A DNA stretch of 63,864 nt, taken from positions 1 to 63,864 of the forward strand of contig NZ_LWQT01000048.1 of NCBI RefSeq assembly GCF_001650715.1, in the 5' to 3' direction. The position numbers and the translations under genes were made by a program. The notes below the pieces were generated by a model. The model worked only from the letters and a program-made list of their open reading frames with translations, did not search any database and was not told the DNA's origin. Shown here piece after piece: positions 2,638 through 7,078 of this stretch. Each line of letters opens with the position of its first letter. The stretch's first letter is position 1. This stretch comes from Paramagnetospirillum marisnigri. GTDB taxonomy: Bacteria; Pseudomonadota; Alphaproteobacteria; Rhodospirillales; Magnetospirillaceae.

Positions 2638-3555
2638 ATGACCACTTCACTTTCCGCCGCCGAGACGAAGAAGGGCGTCATCTTCGCCCTGGCCGCCTAT
2701 GGCAGTTGGGGGCTGTTTCCCGCCTTCTGGCGGCTGATGGCGGAACTGCCGCCGCCCGAGGTTCTGGCCTATCGCGTGGTTTGGACCCTGGTGATGGTCT
2801 TGGTTCTGGTGGGGCTTGACCGCCGCTGGGGCGAGGTCCTGACACTGTTGGGCAAGCGCCGCCAGGTGCTGATCCTGGCCGCCTCCACCTTATGCATCAG
2901 CACCAACTGGCTGGTGTTCATCTGGGTGGTGGGAAGTGGCAATGTGCTGGAAGCCAGCATGGGCTATTTCCTCAACCCACTGGTCAATGTGGGCCTGGGC
3001 GTCCTGGTGCTGGGCGAGCGGCTGCGGAAGATGCAGTGGCTGGCGGTCGCCATCGCCGCCGCCGGGATCGTCCATCTCAGCCTCAGTACCGGCACGCCGC
3101 CCTGGGCGGCGCTGTTCCTGGCCGCCACCTTCGGCGTCTATGGGCTGCTGCGCAAGATACTGCCGGTGGCGCCGCTCACCGGGCTGGCGGTGGAAACCGC
3201 GCTGATGCTGCCCTTCGCCCTGGCCTATCTCGGCTGGCGCCTGGCCGAGGGTGCGCCGTTCATGGGCGGCAGCTGGCCCCTGGCGACGGCCTTGCTGGCC
3301 TGCGGCCCGGTTACCGCCCTGCCGCTGCTCTGGTTCGCGGCGGCCGCGTCGCGCATGCGCTATTCCACCCTGGGCTTCTTCCAGTATCTGGCGCCCACCG
3401 GTCATTTCCTGCTGGCGGTGCTGGCCTATGGCGAAAACGCCGAGGCCGCCCGGATGCTGGCTTTCGCCGGCATCTGGACGGCCATCGCGCTGTATTCGGC
3501 CGATAGCTGGGCCTTCGCTAGACGAAATAGGTCCGAAGCGGGGCGAAGCCGTTGA
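2638..3555 (+). CDS. rarD: RarD protein, EamA/DMT-family transporter
   Basis: A 305-residue protein with about ten hydrophobic segments and the RarD hallmarks: GVIFALAAYGSWGLFPAFWRL at the N-terminus, ISTNWLVFIWVVGSGNVLEASMG, YFLNPLVNVGLGVLVLGERL, and RYSTLGFFQYLAPT near the end. The family belongs to the drug/metabolite transporter superfamily; RarD substrates are not well defined. The last 38 bp overlap the 3' end of the convergent ornithine decarboxylase gene, so the C-terminal tail (RNRSEAGRSR) is encoded opposite the decarboxylase stop region and may be a recent extension. Confidence 0.9.
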   Translation: MTTSLSAAETKKGVIFALAAYGSWGLFPAFWRLMAELPPPEVLAYRVVWTLVMVLVLVGLDRRWGEVLTLLGKRRQVLILAASTLCISTNWLVFIWVVGSGNVLEASMGYFLNPLVNVGLGVLVLGERLRKMQWLAVAIAAAGIVHLSLSTGTPPWAALFLAATFGVYGLLRKILPVAPLTGLAVETALMLPFALAYLGWRLAEGAPFMGGSWPLATALLACGPVTALPLLWFAAAASRMRYSTLGFFQYLAPTGHFLLAVLAYGENAEAARMLAFAGIWTAIALYSADSWAFARRNRSEAGRSR

Positions 3556-4648
3556 AGTTCACCGCCGAATAGCTGCTGGTATAGGCGCCGGTGGAGAGAA
3601 TGCGCACCTTGTCGCCCACCTTGAGCGACAACGGCATGCGATAGCCGCACTTCTCGTAGAGGATGTCGGCGGAATCGCAGGTGGGACCCGCCAGGGCGAC
3701 GGGGCCGGTCTCGTCGTTCTCGTAGGGGGTCTCGATGCGGTACTTGATGGCCTCGTCCATGGTCTCGGCAAGGCCGCCGAACTTGCCCACGTCGAGATAG
3801 ACCCAGCGCACATCCTCGTCGTAGCTCTTGCGGCTGATCAGCACCACCTCGGCCTCCAGCACGCCGGAATTGCCGACCATGGAGCGGCCCGGCTCGATGA
3901 TCATGGTGGGCAGGTTGTTGCCGAAATGCTTGGTCATGGCGTGCATGATGGCGTCGGCATAGCGGTCCATGCCGGGAATGTCGGTGCGGTATTTGGTGGG
4001 CAGGCCGCCGCCCAGATTGATCATGCGCAGCTCGATCCCGCTGGCGGCCAGCTCGGTGAACAGCATGGCGGTCTTGCCCACCGCGATATCCCACTGGGAC
4101 AGGTCGGTCTGCTGGCTGCCCACATGGAACGAGATGCCATAGGGGTCGAGGCCCAGTTCACGGGCGCGCACCAGCAGGTCGCGGGCCATGTCGACCTCGC
4201 AGCCGAACTTGCGCGACAGCGGCCATTCGGCGCCGTCGCAGGTCATCAGGATGCGGCAGAACACCCGGGCGCCGGGGGCGGATTCGGCCAGCTTCTCCAG
4301 CTCGGCCTCGGAATCGAAGGCGAACAGGCTGACGCCCTTGGCATGGGCATAGGCGATGTCGCGCTGCTTCTTGATGGTATTGCCGAAGGAGATGCGCTCG
4401 GGCGCCGCCCCGGCGGCCAGGCAGAGATCAATCTCGCCCGGGCTGGCCACGTCGAAATTGGAACCCAGCCCGGTCAGCAGCGCCACGATCTCGGGCGCCG
4501 GATTGGCCTTGACGGCATAGAAGACCTCGGCCACCGGCAGCCAGTGGCGGATATCCTCGTAATTCTGTCGGACGACATCGAGGTCGACCACCAGGCAGGG
4601 GGTGGCGGGCTGAACCTCTTCCAGGAAACGGGCAATCTTGGCGGTCAT
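3518..4648 (-). CDS. odc: Ornithine (or lysine/ornithine) decarboxylase, alanine-racemase fold
   Basis: A 376-residue PLP enzyme of the eukaryote-type fold III ODC group, making putrescine (or cadaverine) for polyamine synthesis. Visible landmarks are FYAVKANPAPE (PLP Schiff-base Lys), SFHVGSQQ, the phosphate-binding NLGGGLP, EPGRSMV, and the C-terminal GPTCDSADILYE with the catalytic Cys and Asp, ending in YTSSYSAVNFNGF. The start at 4648 is chosen because GGAG lies 6 bases upstream and the protein begins like its relatives. The frame is open further upstream but that part is leader. Expression is probably controlled by the long structured leader and small ORF described separately. Substrate preference between Orn and Lys cannot be settled by eye. 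Confidence 0.93.
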   Translation of the reverse strand: MTAKIARFLEEVQPATPCLVVDLDVVRQNYEDIRHWLPVAEVFYAVKANPAPEIVALLTGLGSNFDVASPGEIDLCLAAGAAPERISFGNTIKKQRDIAYAHAKGVSLFAFDSEAELEKLAESAPGARVFCRILMTCDGAEWPLSRKFGCEVDMARDLLVRARELGLDPYGISFHVGSQQTDLSQWDIAVGKTAMLFTELAASGIELRMINLGGGLPTKYRTDIPGMDRYADAIMHAMTKHFGNNLPTMIIEPGRSMVGNSGVLEAEVVLISRKSYDEDVRWVYLDVGKFGGLAETMDEAIKYRIETPYENDETGPVALAGPTCDSADILYEKCGYRMPLSLKVGDKVRILSTGAYTSSYSAVNFNGFAPLRTYFV

Positions 4649-5014
4649 GGGGGTACTCCAAACGGACCGGATGGTCTTTCGGCTTGCGGCCGGATAGGCG
4701 GTGACGGCCCCGTCCCATTCCCTCGGCGAGGGGACAGGCGGTCCATCGGTGACGACACATCGGGGGGTGTCGTCAGGCCCGTTTGAGCGTACTTCGGACG
4801 TCGGACCACAGCAGGGCCCAGCCCAGCCGAGGAACGGGTTCCGAATAATGCGAAGACAAGGAATCGGACGCCGCCAAAGCGTGCCGGGCAATCGAGTTCA
4901 TAAGATTTCCTCCAAGCACCGGGGGCTTTCACCCCGCCTGCACCCGGAAGACGCCTTTGACGTCGTTGCCTGACCGATATGGTCAGAGGCACGTGCGCTG
5001 TACGTCTGTCCTGA
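4649..5014 (-). ncRNA. Long structured 5' leader of the ornithine decarboxylase mRNA (speF-motif candidate)
   Basis: About 365 nt separate a plausible promoter from the decarboxylase start, and the stretch is full of paired elements. A hairpin lies at 4968-4990 (GCCTGACC/GGTCAGAGGC), and a GGGG/CCCC hairpin at 4921-4935. A perfect 9-bp stem (4750-4758 with 4767-4775) starts exactly on the stop codon of the leader ORF. A CCCTC/GAGGG hairpin and a long-range GGACCG/CGGTCC pairing close the region before the decarboxylase ribosome-binding site. An alphaproteobacterial RNA motif named speF is known upstream of ornithine decarboxylase genes. Position and gene match that motif, but I cannot align its consensus here. 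Confidence 0.5.
4773..4901 (-). CDS. 42-residue leader ORF upstream of ornithine decarboxylase
   Basis: The ATG at 4901 is preceded by a strong Shine-Dalgarno sequence, GGAGG, with 7-base spacing (4909-4913), better than that of the decarboxylase itself. The product begins MNSIARHALAASDSLSS and ends WALLWSDVRSTLKRA. It has no recognisable domain. The TGA stop forms the first three bases of a perfect 9-bp hairpin, and the ORF ends 124 nt before the decarboxylase start on the same strand. That layout is typical of a regulatory leader peptide: ribosome position at its end would decide whether the hairpin forms. In enterobacteria an ornithine-sensing arrest peptide controls speF; this peptide does not resemble that one. 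Function is inferred. Confidence 0.6.
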   Translation of the reverse strand: MNSIARHALAASDSLSSHYSEPVPRLGWALLWSDVRSTLKRA

Positions 5015-5020
5015 GGCCGC

Positions 5021-5048
5021 TATATACGCGGTTTTCACCGGATGAAAA
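5021..5048 (-). promoter_or_regulatory. Candidate promoter for the decarboxylase leader
   Basis: On the minus strand TTTTCA (5043-5048) and TATATA (5021-5026) are separated by 16 bp. The predicted start near 5014 would give a leader of about 365 nt containing the small ORF. The match to a sigma-70 consensus is moderate. Confidence 0.35.
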
Positions 5049-5254
5049 GCGGAAATCTCGTCACGGGAAAATTTTGTGCCCGCCCCGGAACTCGTCCGCG
5101 CCAGGAGCCATCCCGGCCGCGGAAAACCCATCAAATGACGCAAACGCCTTAGGATTGAATATATAGAAGCGATGGCCAACCTCGCAAGTCAGGCGCCATT
5201 TCACTATAGTGCGGCACGAAATATCGGCAAATAATCATAGCAATTTGATTGGGT

Positions 5255-7078
5255 ATGAAACCGAACTTCGCCACGACATGGACACGCAGCAGGCTCGAAA
5301 TGCGGCTGATCGCCGTAATTCTTGGCTGCATGCTATTGCCGACTGTTGTGCTGGGATGGATTGCCTATGACGCCGTCACCGCCAGCATCACCAACGAACG
5401 GACTCATATCGTCGGCGCGGTGGCGTCGTCGAAACGGGATCAACTGGTCACCTTGCTGCACCGCACGCGGACCCGGGCCGAAAGCTTTCTGGCCGATGTG
5501 GGCGCCCGCTGCGATGCGCCGAACCGGGCCGACCGGGCCCGCTGCATATCGGATTCGCTGAAGCTGTTCATCCGCAGTGAACAGGCGGTGGGCGCGGTGC
5601 TTCACATGCCGCAGTTCGACGTGGAGTTCAGCCAGGGCGCCGCCCCGGTTCCGCTTGCCGCCCTACCGACGCCAATGCCGAACCAGATCGCGTTCATGCT
5701 GCCGACGCCCGAGGGGCAGCCGCGCCAATACGTGGTCAAGGCCCAATACAAGTCCGATGAATCGGCCATCGCCATCACCTTTCCCGCCAGCATTCTGCAG
5801 CCGGTCTTTTCCGGCCATCCCGACCTGGGCAGCGCGGGCGAGACCTTCCTGGCCGATGACCAGGGATTGTTCTTCACCCAGGCCCGCTATCCGTCGACAC
5901 AGGGACACGGAGACCACCCCATCTCCGCCCGCCCCATGCGGGAATGCCTGGCGGGGCGCAGCAGCGAAACCCTGGACCTTGACTATCGCGACGTCCCCAT
6001 TATTCACGGCTATCGCCTGGTCCCAGAAGTGGGCGGCGGTTGCATCATGGCCCATGCCGACCAGGCGGAAGCCTTCGCGGCACTGACAGAGCTGCATATC
6101 CGGTTGGCGAGTGTCGCCGCCGCGCTGCTGATCCTGGCCGCCCTGGCCGCCATGCGCATCGCCCGTTCCATCATCCGTCCGGTGACGGAATTGACCCAGG
6201 CCACCCGGGACTTCACCCTGGGCCGCGCATCCAGGCCCATCAACACCTCCGCCCCGGGCGAGTTGGGGGAGTTGGCCCGAGCCTTCGCCTCCATGCGCAT
6301 TGCCGTCAGCGAGGGGAACCGCATCCTGCGGGCCTCGGTGCGCGAGGCCGAGGTGGCGAACCGCGCCAAGAGCGAGTTCCTGGCCAATATGAGCCATGAG
6401 CTGCGCACACCGCTCAACGCCATCATCGGTTTTTCCGAGGTGCTGCGCACCGGCATCATCGCGCCGGTCACCGGCAAGGTGAAGGATTACTGCGACGACA
6501 TCCACACCGCCGGTCAGCATCTGCTGGCCATCGTCAACGATATCCTGGATATCGCCAAGATCGAGGCCGGGCATGTGGAATTGGAGCTTGAGCCGGTGGA
6601 CATGGCCGATCTGGCCAAGAGCTGTCTGGCCATGATGAGCGCACGGGCCGAAGCGGCCGGGGTCAGCTTGCATCACGCGGGTCTGAGCGGCTTGCCGACG
6701 CTGCTGGCCGATCGCACCCGCCTGATGCAGATCCTGGTCAATCTGGTGGGAAATGCCGTCAAGTTCACCCCATCGGGCGGCAAGGTCACCCTTGCCGCCG
6801 TCCACGACCACGAAGTACTGCGCCTGACGGTCAGCGATACCGGCATCGGCATCCCGGCCGAGCATATCGACCGTATCACCGAGCCCTTCTATCAGGTGGA
6901 ATCCTCCTCCAGCCGCAATCACGGCGGTACCGGACTGGGCCTGGCCCTGGTGCGCGAGATGGTGGACATGCATGACGGCCGCCTGCACATCGAAAGCGAA
7001 GTGGGCCGGGGAACCTCCGTCACCGTCACCCTGCCCTGGCGGACCGACGACACCCCCATGGCCCTGACCGGAAGCTGA
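5255..7078 (+). CDS. Membrane sensor histidine kinase (extracytoplasmic sensor-HAMP-HisKA-HATPase)
   Basis: A 607-residue orphan kinase. TM1 is at about residues 16-38 and TM2 at about 285-307, enclosing a roughly 250-residue periplasmic sensor region that looks like a Cache-type fold. It is followed by a HAMP segment ([17 protein letters not shown]), a coiled linker, HisKA ([20 protein letters not shown]) and an ATPase domain with [16 protein letters not shown] and [10 protein letters not shown]. No response regulator lies beside it, so its partner is elsewhere. The frame also has a TTG at 5249; ATG 5255 is preferred. About 350 bp between this gene and the divergent decarboxylase leader ORF hold only the leader's promoter region. 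Confidence 0.92.

Follow-up and report, generated by a model that had tools for sequence, protein, structure and literature searches.

A conserved 5' RNA domain upstream of a leader ORF and an ornithine decarboxylase-like gene in Paramagnetospirillum marisnigri: a possible two-stage translational switch in Alphaproteobacteria

The window analysed here is a 63,864-nucleotide stretch of Paramagnetospirillum marisnigri DNA (contig NZ_LWQT01000048.1 of assembly GCF_001650715.1). On its minus strand, a nearly invariant folded RNA (GCACGTGCC...GCAACGACG, 4949-5007) was found just upstream of a short leader ORF, which is followed by an ornithine decarboxylase-like gene (Table 1). From sequence comparison, this arrangement looks like a widespread, mostly unrecognised polyamine-synthesis switch in Alphaproteobacteria. 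The RNA domain was absent from a first-pass annotation of this DNA, which had been made from the letters alone.

Table 1. Features of the leader and the decarboxylase gene, in window coordinates
Feature	Position	Strand	Basis
Candidate -10 box TATATAG, directly upstream of the RNA domain	5020..5026	-	Read on the sequence
5' RNA domain	4943..5010	-	Match to covariance model R2, 60.4 bits, E 1e-12 (window among the 34 R2 training sequences)
P1, 5' strand, AGACGT	5002..5007	-	Per-sequence pairing test
P2, 5' strand with conserved block, CGCACGTGCC	4988..4997	-	Alignment, block comparison
P3 hairpin, CTGACC-ATATC-GGTCAG, length variable elsewhere	4970..4986	-	Comparison of leaders
P2, 3' strand, GCAACGACG, third base bulged	4961..4969	-	Alignment, block comparison
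P1, 3' strand, GCGTCT	4949..4954	-	Per-sequence pairing test
Hairpin pairing the leader-ORF Shine-Dalgarno (SD) sequence (GGAGG, 4913-4909) with CTTCC (4950-4946), overlapping the end of P1	4909..4951	-	Predicted fold
Leader ORF, 42 codons plus TGA	4773..4901	-	Sequence, conservation
Invariant codons CGA AGT (Arg-Ser) near the ORF end	4791..4796	-	15 of 15 distinct ORFs
Final sense codons of the leader ORF, TCAAACGGGCC, with complementarity to the decarboxylase start region	4776..4786	-	Duplex predictions
Hairpin starting at the leader stop codon	4750..4775	-	Sequence and relatives
Decarboxylase SD region, GGTCCGTTTGGAG, proposed partner of the ORF end	4656..4668	-	Duplex predictions
Ornithine decarboxylase-like gene	3518..4648	-	PF02784, PF00278, PDB match

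The product of the downstream gene was decarboxylase-like in a domain search (PF02784 and PF00278), and its best PDB match was lysine/ornithine decarboxylase 5gjm (E 1.2e-61). Its ATG (4648-4646) lies 124 nt 3' of the leader stop. The leader ORF runs from the ATG at 4901-4899 to the TGA at 4775-4773 and encodes MNSIARHALAASDSLSSHYSEPVPRLGWALLWSDVRSTLKRA, with 7 nt between the end of its GGAGG and the ATG. At the stop codon, TGACGACAC (4775-4767) pairs perfectly with GTGTCGTCA (4758-4750) over 9 bp. These readings agree with the first-pass annotation, which had described an ornithine decarboxylase starting 124 nt past the stop of a 42-codon ORF, a GGAGG 7 bases from the ATG of that ORF, and a TGA that begins a perfect 9-bp stem. 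That annotation had also paired GGACCG (4744-4739) with CGGTCC (4669-4664); both elements are present, and the conserved pairing is instead a local hairpin directly before the decarboxylase SD (GACC-ATCC-GGTC in the window), seen by eye in seven of the nine nearest leaders. The predicted fold of 4640-5020 was modestly more stable than that of shuffled sequences (z = -2.0, 1 of 100 shuffles equally stable). A promoter consensus scan reported two other sites, and the candidate -10 box was absent from its output. No intrinsic terminator was found on the leader strand within 4600-5260, since the sole terminator-like site there sits on the opposite strand. Divergent from the decarboxylase leader, a long plus-strand ORF (5249-7078) is sensor histidine kinase-like by eye (SHELRTPL motif).

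To examine the conservation of the leader ORF, 40 genomes were searched with E up to 1, and matches were obtained in 29. They included all 16 same-genus genomes besides the window's own (E 3.5e-15 to 0.013) and one locus outside the genus (G020, E 1.2e-5); the remaining matches in other genera, with E above 0.018, are probably due to chance. Among 15 distinct ORFs, the length varied by whole codons and the frame was kept despite codon-sized indels, with the middle free to change. The last 18 codons had a pN of 0.16 and a pS of 0.315, and the first 12 codons after the start showed no purifying selection (pN 0.313, pS 0.26). At the C terminus, residues WALLW, D, RS and R were kept in these ORFs. 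Both codons of the invariant CGA AGT are infrequent in the 33 long ORFs of the window, where AGT makes up 25 of 828 Ser codons (3%) and CGA 90 of 1335 Arg codons (7%). An alignment of related leaders had been proposed as a check on the frame and on the stop hairpin. The ORF had a match in 16 of 16 same-genus genomes, CGA AGT was invariant in 15 of 15 distinct ORFs, and one pair of the hairpin was altered on both sides, being A-U in 2 of 16 leaders and G-C in 14. The leader ORF is conserved and very probably translated, and as far as sequence can tell it has the mark of an arrest or leader peptide, namely a short conserved leader ORF under coding constraint, the first 12 codons excepted. A search of Pfam and NCBIfam with the peptide gave nothing above the cut-offs and one sub-threshold Pfam match (E 0.11). 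Searches of the open-access literature turned up neither this leader ORF nor an RNA linked to homospermidine.

The RNA domain was conserved far better than the leader peptide. In P2, CG-CA-CGUGC pairs with GCA-A-CG-A-CG, and at 99 located loci the P2 blocks had the common form in 80, with G-C changed to G-U in 7 and to A-U in 6, U-A changed to C-G in 2 (one of these also with G-U), the bulge base altered in 3, the loop base altered in 1 and a pair broken in none; this count leans towards pairing because R2 includes P2, though it is not forced, the blocks having been located by a regular expression that also allowed unpaired combinations (L185, whose variant block fell outside the expression, was left out). 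The partners of P1 co-vary, occurring as GACGC/GCGTC, GCCC/GGGC, GACGT/ACGTC, TGCGC/GCGTA and GACGTTT/AAATGTC, and in a per-sequence test the mean pairing score was 12.83, compared with 12.81 for the highest of 200 shuffles. Column-wise tests gave weaker results: the covariation score on alignment A2 was equalled by 70 of 500 shuffles, and RNAalifold on alignment A1 returned only P2, with 7 pairs and without any two-sided change. This is partly because P1 lies out of register in A1 and A2, so that the support for P1 rests on the per-sequence test. A pairing of GTACGTC in the ORF with GACGTAC in the 5' domain was considered and rejected; by eye it fits relatives with GTACGTC and fits neither the window's GTACGCTC nor the other families.

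We investigated how widely the domain occurs. The stretch ACGTACAGCGCACGTGCC...AACGACG was carried by 17 of 19 loci examined, the two misses being a contig end and a weak match; L019 (contig end) and L021 (no motif) were dropped. In a sample of 190 genomes of the class, the exact core GCACGTGCC...GCAACGACG was found upstream of 28 of 69 decarboxylase genes and 41 lacked the exact form, a count of exact blocks alone, since variant copies exist (G084, G193). The 69 genes exclude one of 70 matches (G223:C97, incomplete at its start) and include as misses two short upstream stretches (L051, 108 nt; L091, 630 nt). The pattern CACGTGCC...GCAACGACG occurred in 23 of the 190 genomes and a reversed control pattern in 3. 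Covariance model R2, trained on 34 sequences including the window, found 100 loci in 78 of 385 alphaproteobacterial genomes and, when run on the window's own genome, four loci there; in a set of 398 genomes from the phylum it matched 21, each of which carried the label own genome, same family, same order or same class. Named genomes, scanned with an exact pattern, gave at least 120 stretches, and 48 of the 80 loci listed matched R2. Among the matches listed, R2-matching loci came from Azospirillum brasilense, Nitrospirillum amazonense, Reyranella soli, Komagataeibacter, Gluconobacter and Magnetospirillum molischianum; loci from Agromyces and Mycolicibacterium, likewise among the pattern matches listed, did not match R2.

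Genes downstream of the domain were classified at 99 loci by BLAST against reference enzymes, the class being that of the best match among ORFs within ~2 kb downstream and not always that of the first gene. There were 58 ODC1, 23 ODC2-type, 6 homospermidine synthase and 12 unclassified genes; the homospermidine synthase assignment is firm (PDB 4xq9, E 3.8e-148). Two of the 12 (G067, G206) precede ODC1 by their coordinates, which brings the loci with a polyamine enzyme to 89 of 99. Ten loci remain. The DNA downstream is shorter than 150 nt in five of them and 600 nt long in one. In the last four the domain is followed by other ORFs, at L142 by a glutamine amidotransferase and at L178 by an ORF that matched no family significantly; the remaining two are identical copies in the window's own genome.

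The distance from the domain to a start codon was examined next to the type of ORF that follows. At 98 loci, a separate short ORF (2 to 59 codons) stood at the expected place in 64, one long ORF in 16 (15 of them before a classified enzyme) and no ATG in 15, ten of which carry a speF-type TTTTTGGTCTC stretch; three were of other kinds or cut by a contig end. With ORF starts picked by a simple SD score, as also in the comparison of peptides between gene families and in the ten further leader ORFs described below, the ATG lay 52-65 nt after the domain in 70 of 83 loci (median 58). The SD core was predicted to be paired, with a mean unpaired probability of 0.057 and values below 0.3 in 67 of 69 distinct loci. 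The arms of the SD hairpin fitted each other better than swapped partners did (mean -17.3 compared with -15.5 kcal/mol, 0 of 5000 permutations), and such own-versus-swapped tests, here and for the ORF end and start region below, can be inflated by shared base composition. In the window, CTTCC, the SD partner, shares the final bases of P1, which may allow competition between P1 and the hairpin. Translational riboswitches consist of a conserved domain and then an SD-hiding hairpin, before genes of one pathway. The same arrangement was found here, upstream of related metabolic genes in many species; it differs from the usual translational riboswitches in that the gated ORF is usually a leader ORF and the domain is a putative ligand sensor.

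A late AGT recurs at the ends of leader ORFs in other lineages. The window's group comprises 16 leaders, 15 from the same genus and that of G020 (L012). Outside it, 21 of 32 ODC1 leader ORFs have an AGT in the last 12 codons, and AGT makes up 22 of 68 late Ser codons compared with 7 of 60 earlier ones. AGTA[TC] occurs once each in 15 of these 32 ORFs, always in frame (15 of 15) and at 11 different distances from the ATG, and it is absent from the 3104 nt between leader and enzyme. Over 69 distinct short ORFs, 20 of 21 occurrences were in frame. Ten further ODC leader ORFs from named records, a set that leaves out L269 (identical to L011), includes two doubtful starts (L274, L261) and contains several relatives of earlier loci, had AGTA[TC] in six, in frame in all six, and a late AGT in seven. 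Three further loci were dropped, L154 for lack of an ORF and two because the decarboxylase start pattern (L020) or the decarboxylase start (L129) could not be located. Before the main decarboxylase family, short ORFs often end in [S/T]-S(AGT)-[I/M], read in frame, typical ends being RKTSI, GKTSISGL, PSSMTASRL, RQSSMGGLSA and VRSTSKRA. Leader peptides differ in sequence between gene families, and the AGTA pattern is absent from five of the six homospermidine-synthase leaders (14 codons) and from most ODC2 leaders, which counts against a universal arrest motif.

We examined the potential pairing of the ORF end with the decarboxylase start region by modelling. In the window's group, the modelled accessibility of the start region was 0.27 in free RNA compared with 0.48 with a ribosome at the leader stop, rising in 15 of 16 leaders and falling in L012. 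The effect was weak in 36 leaders outside the group (means 0.37 and 0.42). Duplexes between the ORF end and its own start region averaged -27.6, -22.0, -34.0 and -22.5 kcal/mol across four subgroups. L012, a single leader with -34.0, was alone in fitting its own partner best, and the other three subgroups preferred another's start region, so the swap table alone gives no proof of co-evolution. Against shuffled start regions, P was 0.03 or less in 6 of 16 leaders and 0.175 for the window itself. Against dinucleotide shuffles, the mean z was -1.30 in the group (8 of 16 below -1, 3 of 16 above 0) and -0.62 outside it (10 of 32 below -1, 13 of 32 above 0). These models offer moderate support for pairing of the ORF end with the decarboxylase start region in the window's genus, where unmasking of the enzyme start is plausible.

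The first-pass annotation had placed the leader near the alphaproteobacterial speF motif and proposed a search with the Rfam model, which came out negative: RF00518 had no match in 4500-5300 with E up to 10, where a snoRNA chance match was the sole result, and none in the window's own genome. At gathering scores, the whole window returned tRNA only. Rfam scans did not match the domain in any of 18 loci (gathering scores) or 6 loci (E up to 1), the latter output holding two matches to unrelated families far below their cut-offs. The connection to speF stands in another form. RF00518 matched 6 of 190 class genomes, 4 of them over the family cut-off, and four of the six (G067, G078, G160, G206) have an R2 match whose end lies 2-3 nt 5' of the RF00518 match; the other two (G109, G228) had no R2 match and carry both blocks around a 115- or 150-nt insertion. 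The extended speF element, described in 2005, has a conserved 5'-end sequence, a stem with a large insertion and then ~80 conserved nt, as set out in the speF passages of Corbino et al. (PMC1273637). Since the domain directly precedes Rfam speF matches elsewhere, it appears to correspond to the 5' part of this element and to be homologous to it.

Like extended speF, the window's RNA lies at the presumed mRNA 5' end upstream of the same kind of decarboxylase (COG0019-type, in Alphaproteobacteria), and by comparison it has a conserved 5' sequence near the presumed RNA start and a stem with a variable insertion. It differs in P1, which is GCCC/GGGC in extended speF and AGACGT/GCGTCT in the window, and in having, in place of the ~80 conserved nt with their long bulged stem-loop, a short hairpin (~43 nt) that covers the SD of the leader ORF, followed by that conserved ORF. 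Since two of the features tested were lacking, we leave the window outside RF00518. In three speF-like loci (L092, L187, L190), a 12-codon frame, LPHVR(I/S)G(P/F)PVP(T/I), begins at a TTG that stands behind GAAGAGGC, ~65 nt past the domain; in a fourth (L198) it stops after 3 codons, and conservation of the RNA alone may account for the frame. The speF passages of Corbino et al. (PMC1273637) mention neither an ORF nor homospermidine and report that six polyamine-related compounds did not bind the Agrobacterium speF RNA; a 2024 review names speF without a ligand in its passage on the motif (PMC11477304), and the printed Rfam table of an M. gryphiswaldense transcriptome paper has no speF entry (PMC9549626). 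On this comparison speF would be redrawn, its widely shared part being a ~60-nt 5' domain outside the Rfam model, which is also present upstream of homospermidine synthase and of a second family of decarboxylases and which many lineages carry ahead of a leader ORF. This would supply a short RNA with clear boundaries and a new candidate for the ligand, along with leader ORFs on which stalling can be assayed, making the long-open speF question directly testable.

We propose a two-stage translational switch, in which an RNA sensor would control translation of the leader ORF and this translation would unmask the enzyme start; we give this reading somewhat less than an even chance. The compact 5' domain (P1, the almost invariant bulged P2 and the variable P3) adjoins the hairpin predicted to hide the leader SD, and a signal read by the domain would decide whether the leader ORF is translated. 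If it is not, the last codons of the ORF would pair with the decarboxylase start region and keep the enzyme shut; a ribosome translating or pausing at the ORF end, near the rare AGT, would break this pairing and allow the enzyme to be made. Sequence comparison shows the RNA domain with its P1 and P2 pairing, an SD predicted to be paired, an ORF conserved in frame and the association with these enzymes. Ligand binding by the domain, the direction in which the switch acts, a ribosome pause at AGT and the freeing of the enzyme SD are inferred. Homospermidine is an obvious candidate for the ligand, given that homospermidine synthase is among the genes that the domain precedes; it is not among the tested compounds named in the speF passages of Corbino et al. 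(PMC1273637). A broader version, which we regard as rather doubtful, is that a polyamine-sensing RNA class, possibly specific for homospermidine, gates arrest-prone leaders, a ribosome paused at the rare AGT gating ornithine decarboxylase. Such a class would span much of Alphaproteobacteria, and Rfam speF would be one lineage's version of it.

In enterobacteria, ornithine decarboxylase is preceded by the speFL/speF leader, which combines a leader ORF with RNA pairing 3' of it, and SpeFL acts as an arrest peptide. The window shares the ORF before the decarboxylase and the downstream pairing; it differs in belonging to another bacterial class and in the conserved RNA domain that precedes its ORF, and its peptide had no SpeFL-like family match in Pfam and NCBIfam. 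The peptide could be the sensor, an independent counterpart of SpeFL that ornithine or a polyamine would stall near [S/T]-S(AGT)-[I/M], with the 5' RNA setting basal initiation only. The C-terminal residues retained beside a free middle argue for this, as does the late in-frame AGT that recurs across lineages and in 7 of 10 further leader ORFs. We consider it unlikely, given that the homospermidine-synthase leaders (5 of 6) and most ODC2 leaders lack the AGTA pattern, that the ORF continues as one long protein in 16 of 98 loci and that the peptide is far less conserved than the RNA domain. Because about 15 of the 98 loci lead straight into the enzyme without a separate peptide, the 5' RNA is at least as good a candidate for the sensor.

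Those loci also fit a simple RNA switch with translational coupling, in which the peptide sequence would be irrelevant, translation would keep the following mRNA open or stable and, where there is no ORF, the enzyme would occupy the gated start. The constant distance from the domain to the ATG (70 of 83 at 52-65 nt), whether a short ORF or the enzyme follows, the difference of the peptides between gene families and the conservation of the SD-hiding hairpin are consistent with such a switch. A role for the ORF end is suggested, however, by the residues conserved at the C terminus, by CGA AGT, which does not vary, and by the in-frame AGT; we regard pure coupling as quite improbable. Rho-dependent attenuation would require that Rho end transcription in the 124-nt gap or within an ORF left untranslated, and that translation prevent this. 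A long leader with a gated ORF and without an intrinsic terminator on its strand (4600-5260) would suit it, whereas the gap is strongly structured in predictions, which is atypical for Rho loading, and we regard attenuation of this kind as very unlikely.

Of the four domain copies in the window's own genome, two precede genes not recognisable as polyamine genes. These two (C98, 168732-168799 and 197461-197528; L331 and L332) lie in a duplicated segment of at least 5972 bp that is 100% identical, which is either a recent duplication or an assembly artefact, and each is followed by a 59-aa ORF without a Pfam match and by larger ORFs, the first of which is phosphatase/arsenate-reductase-like by eye. 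Another copy (C43, 37202-37268; L146) stands before homospermidine synthase; the leader there has 17 codons, MFVTHKMGFIPEISTSM, and likewise closes with the T-S(AGT)-M pattern. At L142, the ORF directly 3' of the domain (1608-2489) encodes a class-I glutamine amidotransferase (PF00117), possibly a further member of the regulon.
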